64,000 bases of DNA from Syntrophorhabdaceae bacterium (GTDB taxonomy: Bacteria; Desulfobacterota; Syntrophorhabdia; Syntrophorhabdales; Syntrophorhabdaceae), in the NCBI GenBank assembly GCA_036504895.1, contig DASXUJ010000044.1, positions 1 to 64,000 on the forward strand, read 5' to 3'. A program made the translations under genes and the position numbers. This document shows positions 32,365 through 59,129 of this stretch, piece by piece (the first letter of the stretch is position 1; the number at the start of each line of letters is the position of its first letter). The notes beneath the pieces were generated by a model that did no database searches, was not told where the DNA came from, and worked only from the letters and a program-made list of their open reading frames with translations.

Positions 32365-33470
32365 TTATCGGAATACCTAAGGAGATAAAGGAAGGGGAGA
32401 ACAGGGTCTCTCTCACTCCCGCAGGCGCCCACACCCTCGTGATGGACGGCCATACGGTACTCGTGGAGACAAGGGCCGGAGAAGGGAGCGGACTTACGGA
32501 CCCGGAATATGCCCGCGAAGGCGCCGAGATCACATCGCAGGAAGAGGTATTCAGAAGAGCGGAAATGATCGTGAAGGTAAAGGAACCCCTGGAGACGGAA
32601 TGGCGGTTCTTCAGAGAAGGTCAGATACTTTTCACTTACCTTCACCTCGCCTCGTCTCAAAGTCTCACTAATGCCCTTTTGGAAAAAAGTGTCATCGGTA
32701 TAGCCTACGAGACAGTAGAAGACCTTCAGGGCCGGCTCCCGTTGCTCGTGCCCATGAGCGAGGTGGCAGGACGGATGTCCGTTCAGGTGGCCATGCGTTT
32801 TCTCGAAACCGATTACGGCGGAAGAGGAGTGCTCCTAAGTGGAGTCCCCGGCGTCCCCCCCGCGGATGTGGTGATCCTCGGATGCGGGGTAGTGGGTCTC
32901 AATGCGGCCAAGATTGCGGTCGGATTGGGTGCCCACGTGACCATCCTCGACGTAAGCCACGACCGACTCAAGTACATAGACGACATACTCCATGGCAATG
33001 TAATCACCGTCCATTCGAATCCTTTTACCGTGCAGAGGGCGGTCAGTTATGCGGACGTGGTAATCGGGGCCGTTCTGCTCCCGGGCGCCAAGGCGCCTGT
33101 CATCGTCACGGAAAAGATGGTGAACCGGATGAAGTCCGGCTCGGTCATAATAGACGTATCGGTGGATCAGGGAGGATCGGTCGAGACGACCAGACCCACG
33201 ACCCATGCCGACCCCGTGTACCGGCTTTTCGACGTGATTCACTATGGAGTGCCCAATATCCCGGCAGGGGTGCCGAGGACCTCCACCTATGCCCTCACCA
33301 ATACCACCCTACCCTATATCAGGGTTATTGCGTCAAAGGGCATTAAAAGGGCGGCCGAGGAAGACAGGGCCGTTGCCCTGGGAATCAACTGCGTCCGGGG
33401 CGTCCTGACCCACGAAGCGGTAGCCTCGGCGTTTAACATGCCCTGGAAGGCATGGCAGAAAGTACTGTAA
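32361..33470 (+). CDS. ald: Alanine dehydrogenase
   Basis: A 369-residue NAD-dependent alanine dehydrogenase interconverting L-alanine and pyruvate plus ammonia. N-terminal [20 protein letters not shown], the Lys/His active-site region FTYLHLASS and the NAD-binding [22 protein letters not shown] are all present. The start at 32361 (MIIGIPKE) is fixed by family alignment and by its overlap with the stop of the preceding gene; an upstream in-frame ATG at 32325 lies inside that gene. Confidence 0.96.
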
Positions 33471-34193: not shown

Positions 34194-35290
34194 TATGGGC
34201 TCTTGGCCGCTCCTTTCTTCCTGAAGTGGGGTGAGTCCCCCCATTCACCGTACCCAATAGTCTCACCCACCGTCTCGATCCTCTGCTCCAGGCAGGCCCG
34301 GCAAAAGGATGCGTTCTCATCGAGACAAGGCTTATCATCGTAGAGCTGGTACGACGAGCGATACCTGGTGATGGTAATATTGGGCATGATGATGTTGGCC
34401 CCCGCCTTGAGCCCCATTTCCCTTCCCGTCGGGGTGAGCGCCTGGAGGGCCGTGGTGGAGGCGATATTCACATCCTTAAGGTAAAGCCTGGTCACCGCAA
34501 TCATCTTCAGGGCGAGATCGAGCTGTCGCTCCTTTATGGCGTCGAAATCCTCCACTTCAGATGAGAGGGGTGTATCCTTATGGACCAGGTAGGGCCCCAT
34601 GCCCACCATGGCCACATCCATCTTTTCGAAAAAGAGGATATCCTGCGCAAGGTCTTCCATAGTCTGGCCGGGAAGACCGATCATTACGCCCGTACCCACC
34701 TGATAACCCAATTTCTTAAGGATCTCCAGACATTCAAGCCTGGCGCGGAAGCTATGGTCCCGCGGATGAAGCCTCCCGTAAAGCTCCTCATTCGAGGTTT
34801 CGATCCTGAGGAGGTAGCGATGAGCGCCCGCCTCAAACCACCGCCTGTAGGTCTCTTCGCTCTGTTCGCCAAGGGAGAGGGTGATCCCCAGCTTACCTCC
34901 GCTCATTTCCTTTATGCCCTTTAAGATGCGTTCCACAAAGGAGGTGAAGGCACGGTCCTTTCTCTCCCCCGACTGGAGCACCACGGAGGCGTAATTGCTC
35001 TCGAAAGCGAAGCGGGCTCCCTCGAGGATCTCCTCTTCACTCATCTGGTAGCGGTCCACATTCTTGTTGCTTTTCCGTATCCCGCAGTAAAAGCAGTCCT
35101 TCCCGCAGATGTTGCTGAATTCAATAATTCCGCGAAAAAAAACCTTATTCCCCACATATTCCAGCTTAACCTCATAAGCCCGCCGAAAAAGACGCTCCAC
35201 ATCATCCTTTCCGCTAAGGCTTAAAAGGTATACAAGGTCGTCCCGCGTCAAATCGCATCCGGGATCGAGTAATGTTTCCAGTCTCGTCAT
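34193..35290 (-). CDS. hydE: [FeFe]-hydrogenase maturase HydE (radical SAM)
   Basis: A 365-residue radical SAM maturase. The cluster motif CGKDCFYCG (about residues 64-72) is CX3CX2C, preceded by VFFRGIIEFSNI, typical of HydE. It helps build the dithiomethylamine-bridged diiron subcluster of the H-cluster together with HydG and HydF. Its partners hydF and hydG lie 27 kb away at the other end of the hydrogenase island. AAAAGGAG precedes the start at 35290. Confidence 0.93.
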   Translation of the reverse strand: MTRLETLLDPGCDLTRDDLVYLLSLSGKDDVERLFRRAYEVKLEYVGNKVFFRGIIEFSNICGKDCFYCGIRKSNKNVDRYQMSEEEILEGARFAFESNYASVVLQSGERKDRAFTSFVERILKGIKEMSGGKLGITLSLGEQSEETYRRWFEAGAHRYLLRIETSNEELYGRLHPRDHSFRARLECLEILKKLGYQVGTGVMIGLPGQTMEDLAQDILFFEKMDVAMVGMGPYLVHKDTPLSSEVEDFDAIKERQLDLALKMIAVTRLYLKDVNIASTTALQALTPTGREMGLKAGANIIMPNITITRYRSSYQLYDDKPCLDENASFCRACLEQRIETVGETIGYGEWGDSPHFRKKGAAKSP

Positions 35291-35322
35291 ATGACTCCTT
35301 TTCAGTATATATATGGAGAGAT

Positions 35323-35351
35323 AGTATACCTAAATGGTCGGACAAAGTAAA
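35323..35351 (-). promoter_or_regulatory. Promoter of hydE
   Basis: Reading leftward, TTTACT (35346-35351) and TATACT (35323-35328) are 17 bases apart, 33 bases before the hydE start. Confidence 0.5.
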
Positions 35352-35420
35352 TTTGGCTAAAGCCAATAGCGCCCGACATTGGCTCAGGAAACTGAGGATT
35401 GGTGGGCTTCGCTCGTGGAG

Positions 35421-35736
35421 GGGGCGACGTGAACCCCATTGATAGCGGACAACGCAAGCCCGGAAGGAAGTGAAAAGTAGGCAAGCCCCAATATCAAACG
35501 CGCGTCACCCCCACAGCGCATAACGTACCGGTCTTCGTGCGCGATTAGCTCGCAAAGCGAGCGAGAGGGGCGACGTGAACCCCGGAAGGAAGTAAGAAGC
35601 AGGCAAGCAGCCCCAATATCGATCACGCGTGCCTCTGCCACACATACCCTGCTGGTCTCGGTGCGCGATTAGCTCGCAAAGCGAGCGAGAGGGGAGGCTC
35701 CACGGGCTTTGCCCGCGGAGGGGCGACGTGAGCCCC
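35421..35736. repeat. Imperfect intergenic tandem repeats
   Basis: Within the 597-base gap between hydE and the CBS gene, the element GGGGCGACGTGAACCCC recurs at 35421-35437, 35567-35583 and (one change) 35720-35736. A longer unit of ~123 bases, beginning GGAAGGAAGT (35462 and 35584) and including an AGGCAAGC...CCCCAATATC stretch, occurs twice and ends in identical hairpins GCTCGCAAAGCGAGC (35548-35562, 35672-35686). A further hairpin with CGGGC/GCCCG arms lies at ~35697-35719. No coding potential is convincing. Confidence 0.8.
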
Positions 35737-35783
35737 TACAACTGCGGCCCTTAAATAGTACTTGTATCCAGAAACACTTCAAG

Positions 35784-35795
35784 TTATGCTATAAT
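35784..35795 (+). promoter_or_regulatory. Extended -10 promoter of the CBS-domain gene
   Basis: TGC followed by TATAAT (35790-35795) is an extended -10 element without a clear -35. It lies 93 bases before the CBS-domain start. Confidence 0.45.
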
Positions 35796-35887
35796 TTAAC
35801 AAAAGAAATAGCCGAAAGGTCAAGAGGGGCTTGATTCTGTGAGGCTCCGGGGGCCTGGAGCTCAAAATCTTCCGGAGGTGAAAACAT

Positions 35888-36331
35888 ATGAAAACTACCG
35901 TGGCGCAGATTCTCCAACGAAAGGGAAGCGACGTGTGGTCCGTTTCTCCCGATACGCTAGTCTACAGGGCACTTCAACTGATGCAGGACAAGGGAATAGG
36001 CGCCGTGACCGTGGTCGATCAGGCGGGAAAACTGATCGGCATCGTCTCCGAGCGTGATTACGCGAGAAAAGTAATCCTTGAAGGGAGATCGTCCAAGGAG
36101 ACGGAATCAAAGGACATCATGACGAAAGAGCTCTACGTGGTGACCCCTGAGACAGGTGTCGACGAGTGCATATCTCTCATGACGGAAAAACGGATGCGAC
36201 ACCTTCCGGTAATTGATAAGGGAAATCTGACCGGTCTCGTATCTATCGGCGATGTGGTCAAGGCAATCATCAAAGAACAAAGGATCGAGATAGAATATCT
36301 GAACGATTATATTATGGGCAAATATATTTAA
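35888..36331 (+). CDS. Two-CBS-domain protein
   Basis: A 147-residue protein made of a tandem CBS pair: residues ~8-65 (VSPDTLVYRALQLMQDKGIGAVTVVDQ, GIVSERDYARKV) and ~75-135 (VTPETGVDECISLMTEKRMRHLPVID, GLVSIGDVVKAI). Such stand-alone Bateman modules bind adenosyl nucleotides and sense energy state. CGGAGG precedes the start. It stands at the head of the rightward sensory hydrogenase gene group, but a 257-base gap separates it from the next gene. Confidence 0.92.
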   Translation: MKTTVAQILQRKGSDVWSVSPDTLVYRALQLMQDKGIGAVTVVDQAGKLIGIVSERDYARKVILEGRSSKETESKDIMTKELYVVTPETGVDECISLMTEKRMRHLPVIDKGNLTGLVSIGDVVKAIIKEQRIEIEYLNDYIMGKYI

Positions 36332-36413
36332 TATGCAGGGTTAGGTGCGTGGAGAGCCAATCCTGGATATGCTGCGCGCCCTCTGGACAGCAGGCAGGGG
36401 GTAGTGTATTCTA

Positions 36414-36431
36414 AAGGACAGGCATGTCCTT
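36414..36431. other. Perfect inverted repeat before the sensory gene group
   Basis: AAGGACA-GGCA-TGTCCTT is a perfect 7-4-7 inverted repeat, 158 bases before the DRTGG gene at 36589. It may be an operator or a small hairpin. No sigma-70 or sigma-54 promoter is obvious around it. Confidence 0.45.
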
Positions 36432-36588
36432 CTGCCGCATCAGGCATGTAGTGAATAGATCGGGCCGTAAGAGGTGTAACGGCGTTGTTGCTCCCTTGCG
36501 TGTAGTGTATATGAAAGACCATAGTATGGCCTGTAAATATGACAGGACAGAAAAAGAACGGAAAATTCGAGGGAGACGAACCGAGGCT

Positions 36589-36948
36589 ATGACTTTAAAG
36601 GAAGTTCAGGAGATTCTTGGCGCTGATGTGCTGTGCGGAGAACAATCCTTGGATCGGGAGGTTACCACTGCCTTCGCGTGTGACCTTATCAGTGAGATGC
36701 TCGCTTTCGCGGGGTCCCAGACGCTTCTCATCACCTCTCTTACAAACCCCCACGTGATACATACCGCTGAAGTGATGGATGCGATCGGGGTGGTCTTTGT
36801 GGGAGGCAAGAAGCCGTCCGAGGATATAATCGTAAATGTGAACCGGGCAAATATACCTTTGCTTTCGACTCCTTACCTGCTCTATAAGTGTTCCGGCCTT
36901 TTATACTGCAACGGCATCGAAGGGTGCAAGAGAGGTTTCACAGAGTGA
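36589..36948 (+). CDS. DRTGG-domain protein
   Basis: A 119-residue single DRTGG domain, the fold of the HprK N-terminal region. FVGGKKPSEDIIVNVNRANIPLLSTPYLLY corresponds to the motif region. Stand-alone DRTGG proteins recur in [FeFe]-hydrogenase regulatory clusters; their ligand is unknown. The open frame continues upstream to 36424 without similarity, so the ATG at 36589 is chosen. It overlaps the next gene by 4 bases (GTGA). A second DRTGG gene is at 38927. Confidence 0.8.
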   Translation: MTLKEVQEILGADVLCGEQSLDREVTTAFACDLISEMLAFAGSQTLLITSLTNPHVIHTAEVMDAIGVVFVGGKKPSEDIIVNVNRANIPLLSTPYLLYKCSGLLYCNGIEGCKRGFTE

Positions 36949-37439
36949 GTGAACCGGCCGAGAATCCAGTAACGAAACCTCATCTTACCCTGCGCTTCAA
37001 GGTGAACGATGAAGACTTCATCATGGCCGGCGAGGCTGCGTCCAAGACAAAAAAAGCCCTTCAACAGTTGGGGCTCAACCAGGACGTAGTCAAAAACGTT
37101 GCCATTATAGTATATGAAGCAGCGATGAATATCGTGATCCATGCGAATCATGGGGAGATCCAGGTGGTCATCGTCCCGGGCTATGTAACGGTCATCGCCG
37201 AGGACGAAGGCGGTGGAATCCCCGACCTCGATCTTGCAATGCAGGAAGGATACTCGACCGCGCCCGATGAAGTACGGGAGATGGGTTTCGGGGCAGGCAT
37301 GGGCCTACCCAACATCAAACACTGTTCCGACACTTTGAATATCGAGACACGGGCGGGCACCGGGACCACCCTGAAGGCGACCCTCTACCTAAACCAGAAG
37401 GACGGCAAAAAGCTGGAAACAGGAGCCCTTCATGTCTGA
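36945..37439 (+). CDS. RsbW/SpoIIAB-like anti-sigma-type ATPase
   Basis: A 164-residue GHKL ATPase lacking a HisKA domain: N-box VVKNVAIIVYEAAMNIVIHANHG, G1 EDEGGGIPD and G2 GFGAGMGLPNIKHCSD. This is the serine-kinase/anti-sigma class used in partner switching. The GTG at 36945 overlaps the previous stop, and the 3' end overlaps the HydS-like gene by 8 bases, so the three are tightly coupled. No sigma factor or STAS antagonist gene is nearby; its target is unknown. Confidence 0.85.
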   Translation: MSEPAENPVTKPHLTLRFKVNDEDFIMAGEAASKTKKALQQLGLNQDVVKNVAIIVYEAAMNIVIHANHGEIQVVIVPGYVTVIAEDEGGGIPDLDLAMQEGYSTAPDEVREMGFGAGMGLPNIKHCSDTLNIETRAGTGTTLKATLYLNQKDGKKLETGALHV

Positions 37440-38784
37440 TTATTTCCATTCGGTTACCCTCGATTACGAGAAGTGCATGGGATGCACGAACTGCATAAAG
37501 CGCTGCCCGGTCGAGGCTATCCGCGTCCATGAAGGGAAAGCCAAAATCATGCAGGAACGCTGCATCGATTGCGGGGAATGCCTCCGGGCTTGTCCCAATC
37601 ATGCGAAAATCGCAGTAACCGACACACTCGAGAAATTGAGCCCGTACAAATATAAGATCGCCCTGCCCGCCCCTTCCTTTTTCGGACAATTCAGCGAAGA
37701 TACCAAAGCAGAGGAGATTCTCGAGGCTTTCGTCCACGTGGGTTTCGACGATGTCTTCGAAGTGGCTCTCGCGGCCGAGGCGGTCACTTATGTGGTCCAT
37801 AAATATCTCCAGAACAAGACCTTGAAAAGACCCCTCTTTTCCTCCGCGTGTCCCGCGGTTTTAAGGCTCATGCAGATCAAGTTTCCCGAGCTTCTCGACC
37901 GGGTGCTGCCGATAATGACCCCCATGGAGGCCGCCGCCCGCCTTGCAAAGGACGAAGCGGTGAAGAAGACGGGTCTTCCGCGGGAAGATGTCGGGGCATT
38001 CTTCATTTCACCCTGTCCGGCAAAGGTAACCGAGGTGAGGCGCCCCATGACGAACAGGCCTTCCTCTGTCGACGGCGTCATCGGAGTATCCCTGATTTAT
38101 AAGGACATTCTCAAGCATATCACTAAGGACAGAACCTTGCGCGACCAGCCGTCCCGGCGAAGGGCGAGGAATATAGGCATGTCCTGGGGGTACGTCACCG
38201 GTGAATCGAAGGCCATCGATTTCGGCACGAGCCTTGCCGTAAGCGGCATCCACAATGTCATAAGCCTTCTCGAAGAGATTGAGCGCGGAGAGTTGCGGGA
38301 CGTGGATTTCATAGAGCTTCAATCCTGTATCGGCGGATGCGTGGGCGGTCCTCTCAATATCCAGAATGTCTTCGTAGGCAGGATCAGGCTCAGAAACCTC
38401 GTAAAGAAATATATTCAGGATTCGCCATATTACCCGGAGGAGCGGCTGCGCAGCGCCTATGAAGACCGTTCTTTCGAGCTTGTGGAGCCTATTTCGCCCA
38501 GGCCGATCATGGTCCTCGACGAAGACGTATCCCGGGCACTTATAAAGATGGAGCGTCTGGATGCGATCACCAAGGAGCTCCCCGGGCTTGACTGCGGCGC
38601 CTGCGGCTCTCCGAGCTGCCGGGCCCTGGCCGAGGACATCGTACGGGATGTCGCCTTTGACACGGACTGCATCATAAAACTTAGAGAGAGGGTAAAAACC
38701 CTGGCTGAGGAGATTCTCGATCTCGCAAGAAAGCTGCCGCCTGCCATGTCAAAAAATTCGAACGACAAAGAATCAGGCCAATAA
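37432..38784 (+). CDS. HydS-like [FeFe]-hydrogenase sensor-type protein
   Basis: A 450-residue protein. Two N-terminal [4Fe-4S] clusters (CMGCTNCIKRCP, CIDCGECLRACP) precede an [FeFe]-hydrogenase catalytic-like domain. Its H-cluster motifs are divergent: SSACPAV in place of TSCCPxW, SPCPAKVTE for MPCxxKxxE, and QSCIGGCVGG for MACPGGCxxG. The four likely H-cluster Cys ligands are kept, while the proton-relay Cys is Ala, as in Thermotoga HydS. The C-terminus has a further Fe-S module (LDCGACGSPSCRALAED). Family knowledge suggests slow catalysis and a sensory role. It is coupled to the RsbW-like ATPase. Confidence 0.85.
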   Translation: MSDYFHSVTLDYEKCMGCTNCIKRCPVEAIRVHEGKAKIMQERCIDCGECLRACPNHAKIAVTDTLEKLSPYKYKIALPAPSFFGQFSEDTKAEEILEAFVHVGFDDVFEVALAAEAVTYVVHKYLQNKTLKRPLFSSACPAVLRLMQIKFPELLDRVLPIMTPMEAAARLAKDEAVKKTGLPREDVGAFFISPCPAKVTEVRRPMTNRPSSVDGVIGVSLIYKDILKHITKDRTLRDQPSRRRARNIGMSWGYVTGESKAIDFGTSLAVSGIHNVISLLEEIERGELRDVDFIELQSCIGGCVGGPLNIQNVFVGRIRLRNLVKKYIQDSPYYPEERLRSAYEDRSFELVEPISPRPIMVLDEDVSRALIKMERLDAITKELPGLDCGACGSPSCRALAEDIVRDVAFDTDCIIKLRERVKTLAEEILDLARKLPPAMSKNSNDKESGQ

Positions 38785-38786
38785 CG

Positions 38787-38802
38787 GCGGTCGCGCGACC
38801 GC
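38787..38802. other. Perfect 16-base palindrome
   Basis: GCGGTCGCGCGACCGC is perfectly self-complementary and starts 3 bases after the HydS-like stop. It could be an attenuator, RNA-processing or binding site between the two halves of the sensory gene group; there is no T run. Confidence 0.5.
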
Positions 38803-38926
38803 GGGAGAGCAGGAAAGGCGAGACAGGTGCATTACATCAAAAGATAGCACCGGCAATGAAGAATTTTCGTCAGGAATCCCATCCATTCTTACAATGGCAG
38901 TACCGACACCTAAAGAGGAGGAGACT

Positions 38927-39274
38927 ATGACTGTTCGTGAGCTTGTCAGCGTGTTGAATCTCGAGAACCTGACGGGGGACGTGAATCTGGAGAGGCCTGT
39001 GGAGTCCGGCTACACTTCGGACCTGCTCTCCGACGTGATCGCGCACGCAGGCAGGAATTCAGTCTGGATTACCGTGCAAAGACATATAAACATCCTCGGG
39101 GTAGCCCAGCTAAAGGAGATATGCGCCATCGTGGTCCCCCGCAACCTCCCGGTGGAAGAAGGGGTCATTCAAAAGGCAAGGACCGAGGGCATCGCCATCT
39201 TGAGAGACCATCGCTCTGCCTTCGAAATCAGCGGGATCCTCTATAATGTTCTCCAAAAAGGCGGAAATGGTTGA
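38927..39274 (+). CDS. Second DRTGG-domain protein
   Basis: A 115-residue DRTGG-like domain (LENLTGDVNLERPVESGYTSDLLSDVIAHA, then ICAIVVPRNLPVEEGVIQKARTEGIAILR). It differs in sequence from the DRTGG protein at 36589 and is not a recent copy. The start at 38927 follows AGAGGAGGAG; an upstream ATG at 38894 has no site. It shares a TTGA overlap with the PHP gene. Likely a nucleotide or small-ligand sensor of the hydrogenase regulatory group. Confidence 0.75.
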   Translation: MTVRELVSVLNLENLTGDVNLERPVESGYTSDLLSDVIAHAGRNSVWITVQRHINILGVAQLKEICAIVVPRNLPVEEGVIQKARTEGIAILRDHRSAFEISGILYNVLQKGGNG

Positions 39275-40014
39275 ACAGTTATTCCTGCGACCTCCACATC
39301 CACACGGCCCTCTCTCCCTGCGCAAGCCTGGAGATGTCGCCCAGGGAGATCGTCGGCAGGGCGCGCCGGGCCGGACTGGACATTATCGCCATAACCGATC
39401 ACAATATGGTGGAGAATGCCCGGTGCACTGAAGAGATCGGCAGGAGAAACGACCTCCTGGTTCTCCCGGGAATGGAGCTGCAGACGAGCGAGGAGATTCA
39501 TTTGCTCGCCATCTTCGGGGCCAATGAAATAGCGTGTGCCTTCCATGAAGAGGTCTACCGATCGTTGCCGCAGGTGGAGAATAATCCCGATTATTTCGGC
39601 GATCAGGTAGTGGTCGACGAGAACGACAACATCATCCGCTTTGAAAACCGCCTCCTCCTCAATTCCGTTGAATTATCCCTCGACGATGCGGTCCGGCTCA
39701 TCAAGTCCCACGGGGGTATCGTGATCCCATCCCATATAGACAATCCGACCTTCAGCATCATAAGCCAACTGGGATATATACCGGAAAACCTGGATTTTGA
39801 CGCCCTGGAGATACATGATATCGACAATATCCCCCGGGTGCTCCCTTTTATCACAAGAAAAGGGCTGCCCTTCGTTACCTTTTCCGATGCCCATTATCCG
39901 GCGGATATCGGCCGGAGAAGGACCTCTCTCGAGATGCCCGAGCCTTGTTTCGAAGGACTGGTGGAGGCGCTCAAAGGCCTGACGGGCAAAACCGCCGGTG
40001 GGCGCATAGAGTGA
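39271..40014 (+). CDS. PHP-domain metal-dependent phosphoesterase
   Basis: A 247-residue PHP-family protein with metal-binding motifs DLHIHTALSPC, AITDHN, EIHLLAIF, VIPSHIDNPTF and FSDAHYP. The family includes nucleoside 3',5'-bisphosphate and oligonucleotide phosphatases; the substrate here is unknown. PHP genes recur beside DRTGG and [FeFe] sensor genes in anaerobes, hinting at a nucleotide signal. It starts with TTG overlapping the preceding stop (39271-39274). Confidence 0.88.
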   Translation: MNSYSCDLHIHTALSPCASLEMSPREIVGRARRAGLDIIAITDHNMVENARCTEEIGRRNDLLVLPGMELQTSEEIHLLAIFGANEIACAFHEEVYRSLPQVENNPDYFGDQVVVDENDNIIRFENRLLLNSVELSLDDAVRLIKSHGGIVIPSHIDNPTFSIISQLGYIPENLDFDALEIHDIDNIPRVLPFITRKGLPFVTFSDAHYPADIGRRRTSLEMPEPCFEGLVEALKGLTGKTAGGRIE

Positions 40015-40183
40015 CAAGTTCGTGTTATGGTCATTCCATGAATCCCAAAAGACAGAGAGTGGAACATTTCGGCACAAAGTTGTATAATAGTTACACACTA
40101 CAGATTGAGATTAAGCGTCCTGACGGAAAGGTTGCGCCGCAGCGAGCACAGGAAACACGCCACTCTACAAAATTTCCGGTTTG

Positions 40184-40200
40184 TGGCACGAAGGTTGCTA
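40184..40200 (+). promoter_or_regulatory. Consensus sigma-54 promoter
   Basis: TGGCACGAAGGTTGCTA matches the -24/-12 consensus TGGCACG-N4-TTGCW exactly. It lies 88 bases before the ATPase gene at 40288. An RpoN-dependent activator would be needed; none is in the window. The rest of the 40015-40287 gap holds a TATAAT at ~40082 but no gene. Confidence 0.85.
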
Positions 40201-40287
40201 TAGAGAGTGCTTCATCACAATCTTAAATGCGTGGCCGGAGAAGTTTTCAAAGCTGCGATGGAGTAGAGGGAGAACCCGTTACATAAG

Positions 40288-40827
40288 ATGATGGAGGAAC
40301 TGTGTGCCCACATAATGGATATAGCAGCCAATGCCCTTACCGCGGGGGCGCGGCATATAATCGTCTCCATTGACGTGGACCATGGCGCCAATATCCTGTC
40401 CGTAACCTTCAGGGATGACGGTAAGGGTATGGACGAAGAGATGGTGAGAAGGGTAACAGACCCTTTCTTTTCCACTAAAAAGGGGAAAAAGGTAGGTCTC
40501 GGAATTCCCCTGTTGAAAGGCACTGCCGAGACATGCGGAGGACGGTTCAGTCTCACGAGCACTCCCGGACAGGGGGTCGATATCCGCGTCTCCTTTCAAC
40601 TGGACCATCCTGATCTTCCTCCTTTGGGAAATCTCAAGGATACGATCCTGGTTCTGGTCGTAGGAAATCCGGACGTGGATTTCACTTTTGACGTGAGGGT
40701 AGACGACAAGGCCTTCGGCCTGTATACAACCGAGGTAAAAGAGATGATAGGCGGCGTACCCATCAATCACCCGGAGGTGATGAATTTCCTTTTGGAATTT
40801 CTTGACGAAAAATTGTTTTTTATATAG
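40288..40827 (+). CDS. Histidine-kinase-like ATPase (GHKL) of hydrogenase cluster
   Basis: A 179-residue protein: a GHKL ATPase domain (HIMDIAANALTAGARHI N-box, DDGKGMDEEMVRRVTDPFFSTKKGKKVGLGIPLLKG) followed by a ~60-residue tail that is not part of the kinase fold. It lacks a phospho-acceptor His, so it is not a complete histidine kinase. It is distinct from the RsbW-like ATPase at 36945. A perfect sigma-54 promoter precedes it. Next is a 192-base AT-rich regulatory gap and the main hydrogenase operon. Similar ATPases recur beside bifurcating hydrogenase genes. Confidence 0.82.
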   Translation: MMEELCAHIMDIAANALTAGARHIIVSIDVDHGANILSVTFRDDGKGMDEEMVRRVTDPFFSTKKGKKVGLGIPLLKGTAETCGGRFSLTSTPGQGVDIRVSFQLDHPDLPPLGNLKDTILVLVVGNPDVDFTFDVRVDDKAFGLYTTEVKEMIGGVPINHPEVMNFLLEFLDEKLFFI

Positions 40828-40865
40828 AATTTAGTACATTCGACACGTGATTGAGAGAGTTATTT

Positions 40866-40901
40866 TTGTATACAAGTGGGAATAATGTTCGTAAAGAACA
40901 T
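40866..40901. other. Two perfect palindromes upstream of the Rex operator
   Basis: TTGTATACAA (40866-40875) and ATGTTC-GTAAA-GAACAT (40885-40901) are both perfect inverted repeats, lying 18-53 bases upstream of the Rex operator. They may bind an additional activator or repressor of the hydrogenase operon. Confidence 0.5.
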
Positions 40902-40918
40902 ATTTTAAATTAAGGGAT

Positions 40919-40936
40919 TTGTGAAATTTTTAACAA
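40919..40936. promoter_or_regulatory. Rex operator
   Basis: TTGTGAAATTTTTAACAA fits the 18-base Rex consensus TTGTGAA-N4-TTNACAA, with both TTGT/ACAA ends intact. It ends 6 bases before the -35 of the hydrogenase operon promoter. A rex gene lies at 58372-59043. Rex releases DNA when NADH/NAD+ is high, which would induce H2-producing hydrogenases. Confidence 0.75.
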
Positions 40937-40942
40937 TATTTA

Positions 40943-40971
40943 TTGACGAAAAACAACGATTTATTTATAAA
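40943..40971 (+). promoter_or_regulatory. Sigma-70 promoter of the hydrogenase operon
   Basis: TTGACG (40943-40948), a 17-base spacer and TATAAA (40966-40971), 48 bases before the first gene of the operon. The whole region is AT-rich compared with its surroundings. Confidence 0.7.
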
Positions 40972-41019
40972 TTAGTCTCGATTCTTATAAACTAGCCACA
41001 CAGGCACAGGGGAGGCACT

Positions 41020-41379
41020 ATGAATTTAGAAGAGCTTCGAAAGATCAGAGAAAAGGCGGAGAAGGATATCGAGTTACGGCAGAAGAAGACGAGGATCAAA
41101 GTAGTGGTGGGTATGGGTACGAGCGGCATCGCCGCAGGGGCGCGGGAAGTGCTCAAGACATTCGTTGAGGAGATCGGCGCGAGAAACCTGCTCGACGTAG
41201 TCGTCACCCAAACCGGTGAAAAGGGACTCGCATCACAGGAGCCCATGATCGAGGTTTTCGAAGAGGGAAAGCCCGTGATCGTCTACGGGAATATCGACAA
41301 GAAAAAGGCCGTCAGGATCGTCGAAGAGCACCTTGTGGGCAACAGGCCCGTTATCGACTACGTGATCGAAGCAAAGTAA
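41020..41379 (+). CDS. HndB-like thioredoxin-fold subunit lacking cluster cysteines
   Basis: A 119-residue protein with an N-terminal charged helix and a [2Fe-2S]-ferredoxin-like thioredoxin fold, matching the HndB subunit of NADP-reducing hydrogenases. The cluster cysteines are gone: the expected GTCGIAAGA reads GTSGIAAGA, and the second pair region reads TGEKGLASQEP. There is no Cys anywhere in the protein, so it cannot bind a [2Fe-2S] cluster and is probably a structural subunit. GGGGAGG precedes the start. It is the first gene of a seven-gene hydrogenase operon. Confidence 0.85.
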   Translation: MNLEELRKIREKAEKDIELRQKKTRIKVVVGMGTSGIAAGAREVLKTFVEEIGARNLLDVVVTQTGEKGLASQEPMIEVFEEGKPVIVYGNIDKKKAVRIVEEHLVGNRPVIDYVIEAK

Positions 41380-41392
41380 AGGAGGGTGAGAC

Positions 41393-41851
41393 TTGTATCG
41401 AGACGCCATACTAAAAAAGTTTGAACCCCGGCCGGACAATATCCTCTATATCCTGCACGACCTTCAGGACAATAACGAGCAGCACTATGTGGCACAGGAA
41501 GATATAAAGGTATGCGCCGATTATCTGAACCTGCCTTATAGCTTCGTCCACGGTGTTGCGACCTTCTATACCATGTTCAGCCTGAAACCCCGCGGTCGCT
41601 ACATCATTCGACTTTGCGAATCACCCCCATGCCATCTCATGGGCTCAGGGTCCCTGCTCGACTATCTGAAAGAAAAACTGAAGGTTGAAGTAGGGCAGAC
41701 TACCCCCGACGGCCTTTTCACTCTCGAGCTTACGAGCTGCCTCGGAGTATGCGGGGTGGCGCCGGCCTTGATGATGAACAGCGAGACAATCGGGAAACTT
41801 ACTCCTGAAAAGGTTGACACCATTCTGGAGGAGAGGAGAGGGAGCCTATGA
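41393..41851 (+). CDS. NuoE/HydC-like [2Fe-2S] hydrogenase subunit (first hydrogenase)
   Basis: A 152-residue NuoE-type subunit carrying one [2Fe-2S] cluster: CESPPC and, 40 residues on, CLGVC supply the four Cys. It passes electrons between the flavin subunit and the catalytic subunit in bifurcating hydrogenases. It starts with TTG at 41393, preceded by GGAGGGT at ideal spacing. It overlaps the NuoF gene by 4 bases. Confidence 0.93.
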   Translation: MYRDAILKKFEPRPDNILYILHDLQDNNEQHYVAQEDIKVCADYLNLPYSFVHGVATFYTMFSLKPRGRYIIRLCESPPCHLMGSGSLLDYLKEKLKVEVGQTTPDGLFTLELTSCLGVCGVAPALMMNSETIGKLTPEKVDTILEERRGSL

Positions 41852-43428
41852 ACACGGTAAGAAATCATGTCCTTATAAGTATAGATGCCAATACCGTCAT
41901 CGCGGGCGCCCGGGGAGTGGAAGAGGCGCTCATAAAAGAGATCGCGAGCCAGGGCCTTTCCCAGGAGATTGCAGTACTCGAGACGGGAAGCGTGGGAATA
42001 GAGGACCAGGGCGTGGTACTGGTCGTATATCCGGAAGGCATTTACTATGCGAACGTCACCCCGTCCGATGTGCCCGAGCTCGTGGAGCAGCATCTGCTCA
42101 AAGGGAGGCAGGTAGCCCGTCTCGTACTCGCTCACGCACCCAAACGCACCGTGATCCGCAAGGAGGTCACGGGGTTACTTCGGGAACAGCCCCGCATCGT
42201 CCTTAAAAACTGCGGTTTCATCAATCCGGAAAGCATTGAAGAGGCGATTGCAGCCGGCACTTACGAGGCGGCGGCAAAAGCCTTAACCTCGATGAAGCCC
42301 GATGAAGTGGTGGCCGAGGTGAAACACGCGGGTCTTGCCGGAAGGGGCGGCGCGGCATTCCCCACGGGACTCAAGTGGGAATTCGCTTCGAAGGTTGAGA
42401 ACCCCGAAAAATATGTGGTCTGCAATGCCGATGAAGGCGAGCCGGGAACGTTCAAAGACCGTCTCATTCTGGAAGGCGACCCCCACAAGCTCGTGGAGAG
42501 CATGATCATTGCGGGATACGCGGTAGGCGCCACAAAAGGTTTCGTCTATATCCGGGGCGAGTATACCCTTTCCATCGAGAGGCTTGAAAAGGCTATCGCC
42601 GATGCGCGTAAACTGGGAATTCTCGGAAACAATATATTCGATTCGAATTTCAGCTTCGACATTGCGGTAATGAAAGGCGCCGGCGCGTATGTATGTGGCG
42701 AGGAGACGGCCCTCATCGAATCTCTGGAAGGCAAGAGAGGCCATCCAAGAAATAAGCCCCCCTACCCCATCACTTCAGGCCTTTGGGGCAAGCCCACAGT
42801 AGTCAATAACGTGGAGACCCTGTCGAACATACCGGAGATTATTTCGGGCGGAGCGGAGAATTTCAAGAAATACGGCACCGAGAAATGCTCGGGTACGAAA
42901 GTCTATACCATACTGGGCCATGTGGTCACCCCCGGTCTCATCGAAGTCGAGATGGGTACCACCCTTCGGGATATCATATTCGACTACGGCGGAGGCATCA
43001 GGGGTGGGAAAAGGTTCAAAGGAGCTCTCGTGGGCGGCGCCGCAGGCGCATTCCTCGGACCCGACATGCTCGATGTAAAGATGGATTTCGTGAACCTGAG
43101 GGAGTATTCGGCAGCCCTCGGCTCGGGCGCCATTCTGGTTATGGACGAGGATACGGATATAGTGGATATGCTGAAGAGCGTCCTTCACTTTTTCAAGCAC
43201 GAATCGTGCGGCCATTGCGTGCCGTGCAGGCTTGGCACCGCCCGGCTCGTGGAGCTTATCGACCGTGTGGCCTCATCCGTGGGCGACAAGACCGACGTTG
43301 ACGGGCTCCTTCGGATCTCGGAGGTCATGAAGGACACTTCCTTCTGTCCCCTCGGACAGTCCCTTTACCTCCCCGTATCGAGCGCGCTTAAATATTTCCG
43401 GGACGAGATAGTCGCCCAGGTCCAATAA
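41848..43428 (+). CDS. NuoF/HydB-like NADH-binding hydrogenase subunit with Cys-less N-terminal domain
   Basis: A 526-residue flavin subunit. Residues 1-95 are a thioredoxin-like ferredoxin domain in which all four cluster cysteines are replaced (alignment with the second NuoF in this operon gives Ser, Thr, Ser, Glu). Then follow the FMN/NADH domain (GRGGAAFPTGLKWEF, NADEGEPGTFKDR, EETALIESLEGKRGHPR), the SLBB region and the C-terminal [4Fe-4S] site (ESCGHCVPCR with a later Cys in FCPLG). There is no C-terminal 2[4Fe-4S] ferredoxin domain. It oxidises NADH in the first hydrogenase. Confidence 0.93.
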   Translation: MNTVRNHVLISIDANTVIAGARGVEEALIKEIASQGLSQEIAVLETGSVGIEDQGVVLVVYPEGIYYANVTPSDVPELVEQHLLKGRQVARLVLAHAPKRTVIRKEVTGLLREQPRIVLKNCGFINPESIEEAIAAGTYEAAAKALTSMKPDEVVAEVKHAGLAGRGGAAFPTGLKWEFASKVENPEKYVVCNADEGEPGTFKDRLILEGDPHKLVESMIIAGYAVGATKGFVYIRGEYTLSIERLEKAIADARKLGILGNNIFDSNFSFDIAVMKGAGAYVCGEETALIESLEGKRGHPRNKPPYPITSGLWGKPTVVNNVETLSNIPEIISGGAENFKKYGTEKCSGTKVYTILGHVVTPGLIEVEMGTTLRDIIFDYGGGIRGGKRFKGALVGGAAGAFLGPDMLDVKMDFVNLREYSAALGSGAILVMDEDTDIVDMLKSVLHFFKHESCGHCVPCRLGTARLVELIDRVASSVGDKTDVDGLLRISEVMKDTSFCPLGQSLYLPVSSALKYFRDEIVAQVQ

Positions 43429-43453
43429 TGCCATGAGGAGGCAATAAAGATCC

Positions 43454-45211
43454 ATGATGATTAATGCAACCATAAATAAGATAGAAGTTGAGGTAGAGGA
43501 AGGAACCACCGTCCTCGAAGCAGCGAGGAAGGCGGGTTTCAGAATTCCCACCCTCTGCTATAATCCCGATCTTACCCCGGAGGGCTCATGCGGGCTTTGC
43601 GTGGTGGAAATCGAGGGTTTCCCCGCCATGAAAAGGGCGTGCATGACCCGTCTCGAGCGGGGCTGGAAGGTCCACACCAATACGGCTAAAGTGCGCAGCG
43701 CCAGAAAGGAGATCGTGGAGCTTATCCTCTCCAATCACGATATGGACTGCCTGACCTGTGTAAAGAACCAGGCATGCGAGTTGCAGTATGTGGCCAAGCT
43801 CGTGGGCATAAACACCCTCACTTACCCGCGGCTGGAACAGACAAGGCCTATCGATACGACAAGCGCCTCTATCGTGAGAGACCCCAACAAGTGCATCCTC
43901 TGCGGCAGGTGTATTCAGGTATGCTCCGAGATTCAGACGGTAAATGCTCTGTCCCTCGACCAGAGGGGCTTCGATACCCAGATCACCGACGCCTTTAATC
44001 AGGGCATGGGAAACAGCGTCTGCGTCAACTGCGGCCAGTGCACCGTCTATTGTCCGGTGGGCGCCCTGTACGAAAAAAGTCATGTGGATAAAGTATGGGA
44101 GGCGCTAAACGATCCCGATAAGCACGTAGTGGTCCAGGAAGCACCTGCAGTACGGGCCATGCTCGGAGAAGAGTTCGGTATGGAGCCGGGGACCCTCGTC
44201 TCCGGTAAGATGCACGCGGCCCTCAGGCGCCTCAAGTTCGATGCTGTCTTTGACACGAATTTCACCGCCGACCTCACCATTATGGAAGAAGGCACGGAGA
44301 TCGTGGACAGGATTACGAAAAACAGGGACCTGCCGGTCATCACCTCCTGTTCTCCGGGATGGGTTAAATTCCTGGAAACCTTTTACCCCGATCTGGTAAA
44401 GAATGCATCGTCGGCCAAGTCGCCCCAGCAGATGTTCGGCACCCTGGCGAAAACCTATTATGCGGAGCTTAAGGGCATACCCGCGGAAAAGATCGTCTCC
44501 ATCTCCATCATGCCCTGTACCGCCAAGAAATTCGAATGCGAGCGTCCCGAGATGAGGACGAGCGGATATCAGGACGTGGATTACGTCCTGACCACGAGAG
44601 AGATCGCCAGGATGATGAAAGAAGCGGGTATCGACCTCAAGGAGATGCCCGATGAGCTGGCGGACGACCCCCTCGGCGAATACACGGGCGCGGGCACCAT
44701 CTTCGGCGCCACGGGCGGCGTCATGGAGGCAGCCTTGCGAAGCGCCTTCTTCCTCATCACCGGCCGGGAGCTCGAAAACCCTGACATTACCGCTTTAAGA
44801 GGCATGAAGGGCGTCAAGGAGCTCGAAGTGGACGTGGATGGCCTCAAGATAAAGACCGCCGTTGCCCACGGTCTCGGAAACGCGAGGAAGCTCCTCGACA
44901 AGATATCGGAGCAGATCGCGGCTACAGGAAAGAGTGAATATCAGATTGTCGAAGTCATGGCGTGTCCGGGAGGCTGCGTGGGCGGCGGAGGACAGCCGTG
45001 GGGCAGTGACATGGCAAGAAGGGCACGCAGGGGCCAGACCCTCTATGCAGAGGACAAATCTTTGCCTCTCCGCAGATCTCATGAGAACCCCTCAATAAAG
45101 GCTATTTACGAAAAATATCTGGGTCAGCCCTATACCGGAAAGGCCCATCACCTCCTCCATACGCACTACATCAAGAGAAGCAAGGTCGACGGAAAGGTGA
45201 TCTCGGAATAG
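43454..45211 (+). CDS. hydA: [FeFe]-hydrogenase catalytic subunit HydA (first, HndD-like)
   Basis: A 585-residue catalytic subunit. Order: plant-type [2Fe-2S] (Cys at ~35-49), His/Cys [4Fe-4S] (HDMDCLTCVKNQAC), two [4Fe-4S] (CILCGRCIQVCSE, CVNCGQCTVYCP), then the H-cluster domain: L1 TSCSPGW (~residue 297), L2 MPCTAKKFE, L3 VMACPGGCVGGGGQP. In L1 the residue before Pro is Ser, where the classical enzymes have a cluster-ligating Cys. The protein reduces protons with electrons from NADH and ferredoxin as part of a bifurcating complex. A weak GAGGAGG lies upstream. Confidence 0.95.
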   Translation: MMINATINKIEVEVEEGTTVLEAARKAGFRIPTLCYNPDLTPEGSCGLCVVEIEGFPAMKRACMTRLERGWKVHTNTAKVRSARKEIVELILSNHDMDCLTCVKNQACELQYVAKLVGINTLTYPRLEQTRPIDTTSASIVRDPNKCILCGRCIQVCSEIQTVNALSLDQRGFDTQITDAFNQGMGNSVCVNCGQCTVYCPVGALYEKSHVDKVWEALNDPDKHVVVQEAPAVRAMLGEEFGMEPGTLVSGKMHAALRRLKFDAVFDTNFTADLTIMEEGTEIVDRITKNRDLPVITSCSPGWVKFLETFYPDLVKNASSAKSPQQMFGTLAKTYYAELKGIPAEKIVSISIMPCTAKKFECERPEMRTSGYQDVDYVLTTREIARMMKEAGIDLKEMPDELADDPLGEYTGAGTIFGATGGVMEAALRSAFFLITGRELENPDITALRGMKGVKELEVDVDGLKIKTAVAHGLGNARKLLDKISEQIAATGKSEYQIVEVMACPGGCVGGGGQPWGSDMARRARRGQTLYAEDKSLPLRRSHENPSIKAIYEKYLGQPYTGKAHHLLHTHYIKRSKVDGKVISE

Positions 45212-45315
45212 AAGGTGAAAGGCGCCATCGTTAAAACATATGAAAGATTTATCCCGAGCCCCGGGGGAACCCGGTCCCTGGATGAAGGTAAAACGGCATT
45301 ATAAGGAGGAACAGC

Positions 45316-45816
45316 ATGGCCGATGACAACCATGAATGCACATGCGCTCAATTGAGCGAAGAAGAGCTTTACCCAAGATTAGATCTGATCATCGAAGAAC
45401 ACCGCGGAAAGCCGGAAGAGCTGATTATGGCCCTTCATAAGGCGCAGAACCTCTTCGGCTATCTTCCGAGGAAAGTGCAGCAGAAGGTTGCGGAAGGCCT
45501 CGGGGTCTCCATGAACGAAGTGTACGGGGTAATTACCTTCTATTCCTTCTTCTCTACCGTACCCAAGGGACGCCACAGCGTGAAAGTCTGCCTCGGCACC
45601 GCATGCTACGTCAGGGGCGGCCAGCAGACCCTCGGGAAAGTCGAGAAAGAGCTGAAAGTCGACGTGGGCTCGACCACGGAAGATAGAAGGTATTCGGTAG
45701 ATGTGGTCCGTTGTATCGGGGCATGCGGCCTCGCTCCTGCCATGCTGGTCGATAACGATGTGTACGGTCGGGTGAAAACGACGAAAATAATGGAAATTCT
45801 TGACCAATACAAGTAA
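45316..45816 (+). CDS. NuoE/HydC-like [2Fe-2S] subunit (second hydrogenase)
   Basis: A 166-residue NuoE-type subunit. The cluster ligands are CLGTAC and, ~36 residues later, CIGAC. The N-terminal ~25 residues include an HECTC stretch not found in the first NuoE. AAGGAGG precedes the start; a 104-base gap separates it from hydA1. It is followed by the NuoF-GltD fusion after 13 bases. Confidence 0.93.
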   Translation: MADDNHECTCAQLSEEELYPRLDLIIEEHRGKPEELIMALHKAQNLFGYLPRKVQQKVAEGLGVSMNEVYGVITFYSFFSTVPKGRHSVKVCLGTACYVRGGQQTLGKVEKELKVDVGSTTEDRRYSVDVVRCIGACGLAPAMLVDNDVYGRVKTTKIMEILDQYK

Positions 45817-45829
45817 GGAGGGGTCTGAC

Positions 45830-48800
45830 ATGGAGCTAGTGCGTGCTCATGTATTAGTATGTGCCGGAGCCGCCTGTGTATCTTCAGGCTGCCGGGAAAT
45901 AAGAGATGCATTCGTTATTAAGATTATAGAACACGGTCTTCAGGAAGAGGTTAAGGTTATTGAGACCGGCTGCGTAGGCTCCTGCGATCTCGGCCCTCTC
46001 GCCCTGGTCTATCCCGAAGGGATCTTCTATCAGAAGCTGAAGCCTTCCGACGCGGAAGAAGTGGTAACCGAACATCTCCTCAAGGGACGGATCGTAGAGC
46101 GCCTTCTTTACAAGGAGCCCCTCACCGCAAAGACGATTCCGGATTTAAAAGGCATTACCTTCTTCAAGAACCAGGAGAAGATCGTGCTCAGAAACTGCGG
46201 CATGATCAACCCATTGAATATAGATGAATATATCGCCCGTGATGGGTATCAGGCCCTGGGGAAAGTACTCACCTCCATGACACAGGACCAGGTGGTGGAC
46301 GAGATTATCCGGTCGGGTCTTCGCGGCCGCGGCGGCGGGGGATTCCCCACCGGCATGAAATGGAAATTTGCCCAAAAGGCCATAGGCGACGTGAAATATG
46401 TGGTCTGTAACGCGGATGAGGGAGACCCCGGCGCATTCATGGACCGGAGCGTTCTCGAAGGCGACCCCCATAGCGTGATCGAAGCCATGATCATCGCAGG
46501 GTACACCATCGGCGCCCATCAGGGGTATGTATACGTGAGGGCGGAATATCCCCTTGCCATCGAGCGGCTCACGTGGGCAATCAACCAGGCAAAGGAGTAC
46601 AAGTTCCTCGGCAAGAATATTTTCGAGACAGGATTCGACTTCAACCTCGATATCCGTATCGGCGCAGGGGCTTTCGTCTGCGGCGAGGAAACGGCCCTTA
46701 TGTTCTCCATCGAGGGAAAGAGAGGCGAGCCGAGGCCGAGACCTCCTTTCCCGGCAGTGCGCGGCCTTTTCAATGCGCCGACCCTCCTCAATAATGTAGA
46801 AACCTATGCCAATATCGCCGCCATTATCAATAAAGGCGCGGACTGGTATGCAGCCTTCGGAACGGAGAAGAGCAAGGGCACCAAGGTCTTCGCTCTCGCA
46901 GGCAATGTAAATAATACCGGTCTCGTTGAAGTACCCATGGGCACTTCCCTGGGCGAGCTGGTCTTCGATATCGGAGGCGGCATAAAGGGCGGTAAGAAAT
47001 TCAAGGCTGCCCAGCTCGGCGGGCCGTCAGGCGGTTGTATCCCCACCCAGCACCTCAATGTCCCCATAGATTACGAGTCGGTGCAGGAATTAGGCGCCAT
47101 TGTCGGCTCCGGCGGTTTGATCGTGGCCGATGAAGACACCTGCATGGTCGATTTCGCCCGCTTCTTCGTCGATTTCATCCAGGACGAGTCCTGCGGAAAA
47201 TGCCCTCCCTGCCGTATCGGGACTAAGAGAATGCTCGAGATCCTCAACCGGATCGTCCGGGGACAGGGCCGTGAAGGCGACATCGACAGCCTTATCGAGC
47301 TTTCCGAACGGATAAAGGATGCGGCCCTTTGCGGCCTCGGCCAGACCGCCCCGAACCCGGTACTCTCGACCCTCAGGTTTTTCAGGAACGAGTATGAGGA
47401 GCATATAAAAGATAAGCATTGCCGTGCGGGGGTCTGTTCCTCCCTCTTCGATGCCCCCTGCCAGAATGCCTGCCCCGCAGGCCAGAACGCATGGGGTTAT
47501 GTCACCCTCATCAGCGAAGGGAGATTCGAAGATGCCGTCGCCGTAATAAAAGAGGGGAATCCTTTCCCCGCGGTGTGCGGACGCGTCTGCGTCCATCCGT
47601 GCGAGACCAAGTGCCGCAGACAGCAGGTCGACGAACCCGTTGCGATCTGCGCCCTCAAACGTTTTGCCGCTGATTTCGACATGAATTCCTTCACCCCTTA
47701 CCGTCCCAAGGTAGCGGATGCCAAGGATGCCAGGATTGCCATTATCGGCGCAGGTCCTGCGGGACTCACCGCTGCCTATTATCTTGCTGCCAAGGGGTAT
47801 AAGGTGACGGTATTCGAATCGCTGCCCGTACCGGGAGGCATGCTCGCCGTGGGCATCCCCGAATACCGCTTACCCAAAGAAACCCTGAACGCCGAGGTAA
47901 AATCAATTACCGATCTCGGTGTGGAAATCAAATATAACACTGCCATAGGCAAAGATATTACAGTCGAGAAACTCTTCTCCGACGGATACGGCGCAGTACT
48001 CATGGCGACCGGCGCCCACAAGGGCCAGACCCTGGGCATCCCGGGAGACGACAGCGACGGAGTAGTTGACGGCGCGACCTTCCTGCGCAATCTGAACCTC
48101 AAAAAGGCGGTGAAAGTGGAAGGCCAGGTGGCGGTGGTAGGCGGCGGTAACGTTGCCATCGACGCGGCCCGGTCGGCTCTTCGACTCGGGGCAAAAAATG
48201 TGGTAATCCTCTATCGCAGGGAGAAGGAAGACATGCCCGCCTATGAGGAAGAAATTGTGGAAGCCGAGCATGAGGGCGTGAAAATCCATACCCTCGTTGC
48301 ACCGAAAAGACTCATCGCCGAAAACGGAAAGCTTGTGCAGATCGAGTGCGTGCGCATGTCGCTCGGCGCCTTCGACAAGAGCGGAAGGCGCAGACCCGAG
48401 ACCATACCCGGTTCAGAGTTCACCCTCGATGTAGATACAGTCATCGCCGCCATCGGACAGGTCCCCGACCTCTCCTATCTCAATGGGGACGGCGTGGGCG
48501 TGAGCCCCAGCGGCACTATTGCAGTGGATGACCTCAAGACCCTGGCCACAGCTCGGCAAGGCATATTTGCCGCCGGAGACGCGGTAAGGGGCCCGGCCAC
48601 TGTGGTGGAAGCCATAGGAGACGGAAAGAGGGCAGCCCTGGCAATCGACAAATATCTGGGAGGCGACGGAATGCTGAGCGATACCTTCCGCGAGAGACTC
48701 GTCAAACTCGTGGTCTCCTATAATGAAGAAGAATACCAGAAAGAGAGGGGGAGGGCCGAATCTCCGTCTATACCTCTCTCCGAAAGGTATAAAAACTTTA

Positions 48801-48898
48801 AGGAAGTAGTGCTCCCCTATCCGTCCAAGGCAGCGGTCGAGGAGGCCAAGAGGTGCCTCCATTGCTACCTCAGGCAGGACGAGCAATCCACAAATTAG
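45830..48898 (+). CDS. NuoF-GltD fusion: NADH- and NAD(P)H-linked hydrogenase subunit
   Basis: A 1022-residue fusion. Residues 1-95: thioredoxin-like [2Fe-2S] domain with all four Cys (VCAGAAC, CVGSC). ~120-545: NuoF with FMN/NADH site (GRGGGGFPTGMKWKF) and [4Fe-4S] (ESCGKCPPCR, CGLG). ~545-620: GltD-type double [4Fe-4S] domain (CQNACPAGQNAWGY, CGRVCVHPCETKCRR). ~635-1022: FAD and NAD(P) Rossmann folds (IIGAGPAGLTAAYYL, VVGGGNVAIDAARSA, YRREKEDMPA) and a CLHC end. The second half matches glutamate synthase small subunit/NfnB-type NADPH flavoproteins. One chain therefore has two pyridine-nucleotide sites. The ATG at 45830 follows AAGGAGGGG. Confidence 0.94.
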   Translation: MELVRAHVLVCAGAACVSSGCREIRDAFVIKIIEHGLQEEVKVIETGCVGSCDLGPLALVYPEGIFYQKLKPSDAEEVVTEHLLKGRIVERLLYKEPLTAKTIPDLKGITFFKNQEKIVLRNCGMINPLNIDEYIARDGYQALGKVLTSMTQDQVVDEIIRSGLRGRGGGGFPTGMKWKFAQKAIGDVKYVVCNADEGDPGAFMDRSVLEGDPHSVIEAMIIAGYTIGAHQGYVYVRAEYPLAIERLTWAINQAKEYKFLGKNIFETGFDFNLDIRIGAGAFVCGEETALMFSIEGKRGEPRPRPPFPAVRGLFNAPTLLNNVETYANIAAIINKGADWYAAFGTEKSKGTKVFALAGNVNNTGLVEVPMGTSLGELVFDIGGGIKGGKKFKAAQLGGPSGGCIPTQHLNVPIDYESVQELGAIVGSGGLIVADEDTCMVDFARFFVDFIQDESCGKCPPCRIGTKRMLEILNRIVRGQGREGDIDSLIELSERIKDAALCGLGQTAPNPVLSTLRFFRNEYEEHIKDKHCRAGVCSSLFDAPCQNACPAGQNAWGYVTLISEGRFEDAVAVIKEGNPFPAVCGRVCVHPCETKCRRQQVDEPVAICALKRFAADFDMNSFTPYRPKVADAKDARIAIIGAGPAGLTAAYYLAAKGYKVTVFESLPVPGGMLAVGIPEYRLPKETLNAEVKSITDLGVEIKYNTAIGKDITVEKLFSDGYGAVLMATGAHKGQTLGIPGDDSDGVVDGATFLRNLNLKKAVKVEGQVAVVGGGNVAIDAARSALRLGAKNVVILYRREKEDMPAYEEEIVEAEHEGVKIHTLVAPKRLIAENGKLVQIECVRMSLGAFDKSGRRRPETIPGSEFTLDVDTVIAAIGQVPDLSYLNGDGVGVSPSGTIAVDDLKTLATARQGIFAAGDAVRGPATVVEAIGDGKRAALAIDKYLGGDGMLSDTFRERLVKLVVSYNEEEYQKERGRAESPSIPLSERYKNFKEVVLPYPSKAAVEEAKRCLHCYLRQDEQSTN

Positions 48899-48918
48899 AT
48901 CAAGGAGCGTGATGAGGT

Positions 48919-53873: not shown

Positions 53874-53930
53874 TTTTATCCCCTTTTGTGGGGAGACAGG
53901 TGATACGCCGCCCCACATTGCACTTTTTTA

Positions 53931-59043: not shown

Positions 59044-59100
59044 TGGTGCCTCCTCCTGAATCTATGGATATTTATTTATTGATATCTTCTTATCGATAAA

Positions 59101-59129
59101 AGTATATCGATAGTTTTTTATCGTGTCAA
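59101..59129 (-). promoter_or_regulatory. Promoter of the rex operon
   Basis: Reading leftward, TTGACA (59124-59129) and TATACT (59101-59106) with a 17-base spacer, an excellent sigma-70 match. Two TATCGATA palindromes (around 59092-59100 and 59104-59112) flank the -10 and could bind a regulator. No Rex-type operator is seen here. Confidence 0.8.

Follow-up and report, generated by a model that had tools for sequence, protein, structure and literature searches.

A candidate Rex box apparently derived from coding sequence beside a hydrogenase operon, and a Rex paralogue with a likely operator of its own, in Syntrophorhabdaceae

Background

The Rex operator has been described as TTGTGAANNNNTTCACAA (Ravcheev et al. 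2012, as quoted in PMC6391272 and PMC5317091). The structure of Thermotoga maritima Rex on DNA shows two pairs of base-reading residues, Arg48 and Lys49 for the major groove, and Arg60 and Gly61 for the outer T bases on the minor-groove side (PMC8836258). Rex has been linked to hydrogenase genes in Caldicellulosiruptor bescii (PMC6391272) and in Caldithrix abyssi (PMC5317091). In the window considered here, the whole 64,000-nucleotide stretch of a Syntrophorhabdaceae genome that was analysed, a candidate Rex box precedes one hydrogenase operon and a rex gene heads another; the two are probably not partners.

The candidate Rex box and its setting

The candidate is an 18-mer, TTGTGAAATTTTTAACAA (TTGTGAA-N4-TTAACAA; 40919-40936, no strand assigned), which matches the Rex consensus without mismatch and ends 6 bases before a TTGACG-17-TATAAA promoter (40943-40971, plus strand; TTGACG at 40943-40948, TATAAA at 40966-40971, spacer 17 bases), both as described in the initial annotation. 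The next gene starts at 41020 and encodes a 119-aa 2Fe-2S ferredoxin-like protein (41020-41379, plus strand), the first of a hydrogenase operon that continues with NuoE, NuoF, [FeFe] HydA, NuoE, a NuoF-GltD fusion and [FeFe] HydA (41393-50640, plus strand). The fusion (45800-48898, 1032 aa) joins NuoF to a GltD-like domain (NADPH-dependent glutamate synthase small subunit), and relatives also have open frames of about this length. Upstream, 35888-40827 encodes CBS, DRTGG, HATPase, monomeric Fe-hydrogenase-like, HPr-kinase-N, PHP and HATPase proteins, a gene set with the appearance of a sensory hydrogenase/signalling module and whose order before the hydrogenase operon is kept in relatives.

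The last gene of this set, an intact HATPase gene (anti-sigma/histidine-kinase-like ATPase; 40288-40827, plus strand), carries at its 3' end another promoter copy, TTGACG-17-TAGAAT (copy 1; 40802-40830, plus strand), which passes a consensus promoter scan. The -10 of the copy beside the 18-mer (copy 2), TATAAA, fails the rule of that scan requiring T at position 6. No Rex box is present in front of copy 1, and the hydrogenase operon may be driven by this copy.

A genome-wide motif scan of the kind suggested with the initial annotation found the 40919 site to be the only perfect match to TTGTKAANNNNTTMACAA (TTGTKAA-N4-TTMACAA, an 18-bp inverted repeat) in its own 4.35-Mb genome; at up to two mismatches there were 27 sites, compared with 16 for a reversed control. 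Allowing up to three mismatches, the literal 18-mer matches once in the window where shuffles gave a mean of 0.01, but shuffles are an unsuitable null for a sequence with a coding 3' end as its ancestor. With a matrix built from the acs and acyl-CoA dehydrogenase sites of relatives the site scored 26.0 and the genome's own acs site 27.2, while no other place in the window exceeded 5.0. Its placement beside the -35 also matches that in the family's conserved acs promoters (TTGTGAAAATATTAACAA-N7-TTGACA), and the consensus fit together with this acs-like position therefore makes Rex control of the hydrogenase operon plausible. At the orthologous promoters the box has one mismatch in both other members of the genus (G001 and G002) and is not conserved beyond them, the best matches in 19 further genomes having 3-6 mismatches.

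Origin of the site

The initial annotation missed the apparent origin of the site in coding sequence. The stretch 40919-41016 (plus strand) was identified by blastn and nhmmer as a relic of the ATPase gene 3' end and the spacer behind it that remains colinear with the G001 sequence between TTGTGAAA and the ribosome-binding site. By blastn it was 77% identical over 99 bp (E 2e-14) to the G001 coding end and spacer as far as the ribosome-binding site, and its local alignment score was 37, whereas no shuffle scored above 24. In the two other members of the genus that were compared (G001 and G002), the ATPase gene that precedes the hydrogenase operon has the 3' end ...TTGTGAAATTTTTAAC(AG/TA)AATTTCTTGACGAAAAG..., and the only significant matches in the window to an nhmmer profile of these two ends were the end of the intact gene and 40919-40967 (E 2.8e-5); a family-wide profile of ATPase ends found the relic weakly (E 0.05). 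From the alignment it follows that the box corresponds to the VKFLT codons of the ATPase gene and the -35 to LDE, with the -10 by the former stop. Upstream of 40919 no significant alignment was obtained (94-487 of 2000 shuffles were equally good), although TGTATACAA recurs there at roughly the expected offset.

The TTGAC of the copy 2 promoter is kept in relatives: 12 of 15 use it for Leu-Asp in the ATPase end, where 1.7 would be expected from the codon usage of each gene; the p-value for this is optimistic because the genomes are related. The excess therefore points to a hydrogenase-gene promoter embedded in the ATPase end, which is probably real and conserved in the family. The Rex box is probably recent and outside the ancestral promoter design, with one-mismatch versions in the genus only.

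Canonical boxes and the two Rex proteins

Boxes before acs (mostly TTGTGAAAATATTAACAA) were found in every family genome whose acs start could be read (23/23; 18 without mismatch, four with one, one with two). They are followed after ~7 bases by TTGACA and a TAxAAT-like -10, and occur in genomes with one Rex as well as in those with two. Acyl-CoA dehydrogenase genes also carry a box of the 40919 class, and the sites in the genome under study (G000:C138:29999-30016 and G000:C14:4541-4558) lie before acetyl-CoA synthetase, with one mismatch, and an acyl-CoA dehydrogenase gene. Since family genomes without the window-type Rex also have this class of box, the class tracks the canonical Rex rather than the window type.

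A PF06971 search of the genome revealed two rex genes, one on contig C29 and that of the window on C44. The latter (58372-59043, minus strand), 18 kb from the box, does head a convergent third hydrogenase operon as initially annotated, with NuoE, NuoF, HydA, a second Fe-hydrogenase-like protein and a SpoIIE-type phosphatase behind it (50990-58361, minus strand). Its product fits the Rex family, having a Rex-type winged-helix N-terminus and a Rossmann NAD-binding domain (PF06971 and PF02629 above cut-off; NF003994 at 287 bits, cut-off 130). Among 40 relatives canonical Rex was found in nearly all and the window-type paralogue in 14, and the identity of the window-type proteins outside this genome was 67-81%. 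No Rex was detected in four relatives (G027, G032, G034 and G035), and none of these has a perfect box. All four base-contacting residues, R48, K49, R60 and G61, are kept in 17/17 canonical Rex, that of C29 included. The window-type proteins keep R48 and K49 and have P-K in place of R60-G61 in 14/14, every orthologue thus departing at the wing from the canonical base-contact set.

At the promoter of the C29 rex itself the best TTGTGAA-type box has three mismatches, and at those of other canonical rex genes 2-4. A conserved CTTGWTAAATTTTTCTCTTG element precedes canonical rex genes of the order (G000:C29 at about 32400-32500, L016; L035-L047); it occurs as two tandem copies in several genomes and is not a clean Rex box.

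The likely operator array of the window-type Rex

The third hydrogenase operon had been annotated as lacking an operator of this kind, which holds for the TTGTGAA type but not in substance, as a different conserved array lies at 59063-59126 (no strand assigned). It comprises five TATCGATA-like units at 14-bp spacing, two of them perfect (59091-59098 and 59105-59112), is likely to be the operator array of the window-type Rex, and overlaps the rex promoter (59101-59129, minus strand; TTGACA at 59129-59124, a spacer of 17, TATACT at 59106-59101). A TATCGATA-N6-TATCGATA pair with at most one mismatch was found upstream of 14/14 window-type rex genes, compared with 5-8 mismatches before canonical rex. 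The best TTGTGAA-type box upstream of 13 window-type rex genes had 3-5 mismatches, against 0-1 for the TATCGATA pair. The arrays consist of two to five units with a centre spacing of 14 bp, over or beside a TTGACA-type promoter. In the genome under study a perfect pair occurs only at the window rex, and in a scan of 40 genomes every zero-mismatch match, among the matches listed, was at a window-type rex. The pattern TCGATAN6TATCGA at one mismatch was rejected as a definer of the regulon, being too frequent, and the longer pattern separates cleanly only at zero mismatches.

The form T(C/T)GATA-N6-TATC(G/A)A spans 18 bp, the same length as the Rex box, and would appear to keep the bases contacted by Arg48 (G) and Lys49 (A), with changes at positions 2, 4 and 5. 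A collection-wide scan yielded 25 loci, and all 24 for which anchoring succeeded have a P[KR] wing; two Omnitrophota and one Bacillota genome still have array-like sites, which fade in the most distant genomes. In the Omnitrophota (L213 and L215) the window-type Rex has 68-69% identity and the operator array is present. The occurrence of protein and array in another phylum suggests lateral transfer. A literature search for a Rex paralogue with its own operator gave no match; the search did not take in Ravcheev et al. 2012, and the novelty of the TATCGATA-type operator is therefore not proven.

Alternative explanations

Binding of the window Rex (58372-59043) at 40919, so that one hydrogenase operon would control the other in the manner predicted by the initial annotation, was adopted at first and dropped after the second rex had been found and the other operator had appeared. 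The two elements do share a locus, and the protein has the NAD-binding Rex fold with the recognition-helix R48/K49 kept. Moreover, in two relatives (G008 and G020) a window-type rex is divergent from and adjoins the homologous hydrogenase operon, so that control of that operon by a window-type Rex through a shared array is conceivable there. However, the genome encodes a second, canonical Rex, TTGTGAA boxes are present in genomes without the window-type protein, and the latter differs in 14/14 cases both in its wing residues and in the conserved operator at its own promoter; in the window no TATCGATA-type site at up to two mismatches lies near 35290-41020. Control by the window Rex is thus quite improbable, the wiring first proposed is probably wrong, and the canonical Rex is the likelier binder.

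It is also conceivable that no regulator binds the 18-mer in vivo and that a decayed VKFLT coding sequence matches the Rex box by coincidence. The homology to coding 3' ends begins exactly at 40919 and the 18-mer is unconserved beyond the genus, but coincidence would have to account for the only perfect box in the genome and for its position with respect to the -35, which matches that of the acs boxes. In the relic 17/18 box bases are retained, against 59/81 in the rest of the alignment (a weak difference, one-sided Fisher p 0.04), its sole box difference from G001 completes the palindrome, and the functional ATPase end is without a box. The retained bases in the relic and the box-free functional gene end hint at selection on the relic, short of proof, and a chance match is considered rather unlikely. 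A further reading takes the TTGTGAA-N4-TTAACAA boxes at 40919 and acs as sites for a regulator of the CRP/FNR family, whose TGTGA-N6-TCACA overlaps the Rex consensus; TTGTGA-N6-TMACAA could be read by a regulator of that type. The acs sites of the sister family are TTGTGATAATATGCACAA, and a related degraded acs site occurs in G027 (sister family, 84% complete), in which no Rex was detected. However, half-sites of the TTGTTAA form, seen at acs and at acyl-CoA dehydrogenase genes, are not CRP-like, and near-perfect -35 and -10 elements with a site centred near -51 would seem ill-suited to a standard class I or II activator, making CRP/FNR-type regulation very improbable.

Proposed regulation

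On the basis of sequence, homology, conservation and residue changes the explanation favoured, with moderate confidence, is that a genus-specific Rex box was exapted from coding sequence and is recognised by the canonical Rex, while a different operator serves the rex-led operon; it predicts protein-DNA binding, the direction of regulation and use in vivo. The 40919 element would derive from the coding 3' end of the adjacent ATPase gene, a region that would hold the hydrogenase promoter in most of the family. A second copy of this end would have been left behind as a non-coding relic, with letters that complete the palindrome. Because the window Rex appears to use a different DNA code, the box most likely answers to the second Rex, the housekeeping protein encoded on C29, which would repress the hydrogenase operon at low NADH/NAD+ along with acs and an acyl-CoA dehydrogenase gene. 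The window Rex, of a hydrogenase-linked subfamily, is most likely a repressor of the rex-nuoE-nuoF-hydA operon to which its gene belongs, acting at the 14-bp TATCGATA array on the promoter. Points against this model are that the box is unconserved beyond the genus, that protein coding explains the letters of G001 and G002 at the box, that the window Rex keeps R48 and K49, and that canonical rex promoters carry CTTGWTAAATTTTTCTCTTG instead of a clean Rex box.

The chances are about even for a broader proposal, that the hydrogenase-linked Rex with the P-K wing forms a subfamily in Syntrophorhabdaceae, Omnitrophota and some Bacillota with its own code, T(C/T)GATA-N6-TATC(G/A)A, repeated every 14 bp over the rex promoter. 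Each cell would then have two NADH sensors with separated regulons, and the canonical box at 40919 would have been recruited from the neighbour's coding end, freed from coding by duplication. If true, two paralogues with different DNA codes would give a syntrophic hydrogen producer separate NADH/NAD+ control of different hydrogenases, and the paired change of wing residues and operator would be a direct, testable specificity switch. Reasoning from a motif and a nearby regulator would miswire this regulon, and the relic would illustrate a regulatory site emerging from coding sequence.

Comparison with known systems

Compared with the Rex operator TTGTGAANNNNTTCACAA, in the form quoted from Ravcheev et al. 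2012, the 40919 site is likewise an 18-bp inverted repeat beside a promoter, perfect if the G/T variant is allowed, but differs in one TTGTTAA-type half and in its apparent derivation from the coding end of a neighbouring gene. Caldicellulosiruptor bescii also has Rex boxes before hydrogenase genes, and these are bound by Rex in vitro (PMC6391272) where here binding is predicted; a single, autoregulating Rex was described there (PMC6391272), whereas here there are two, apparently with different operators. The third operon resembles Cabys_3675-3679 of Caldithrix abyssi, where rex is likewise the first gene before electron-bifurcating-type [FeFe]-hydrogenase genes and is preceded by a site (PMC5317091), although that site is canonical (cTGTGAATCAATTCACAt, PMC5317091) and the window rex has the TATCGATA array with its 14-bp period. 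Thermotoga maritima Rex TM0169, known in complex with operator DNA (7WB3, PMC8836258), shares its fold and the recognition-helix Arg-Lys with the window Rex, but the wing Arg60-Gly61 with which TM0169 contacts the outer T bases from the minor groove (PMC8836258) is Pro-Lys in the window protein.
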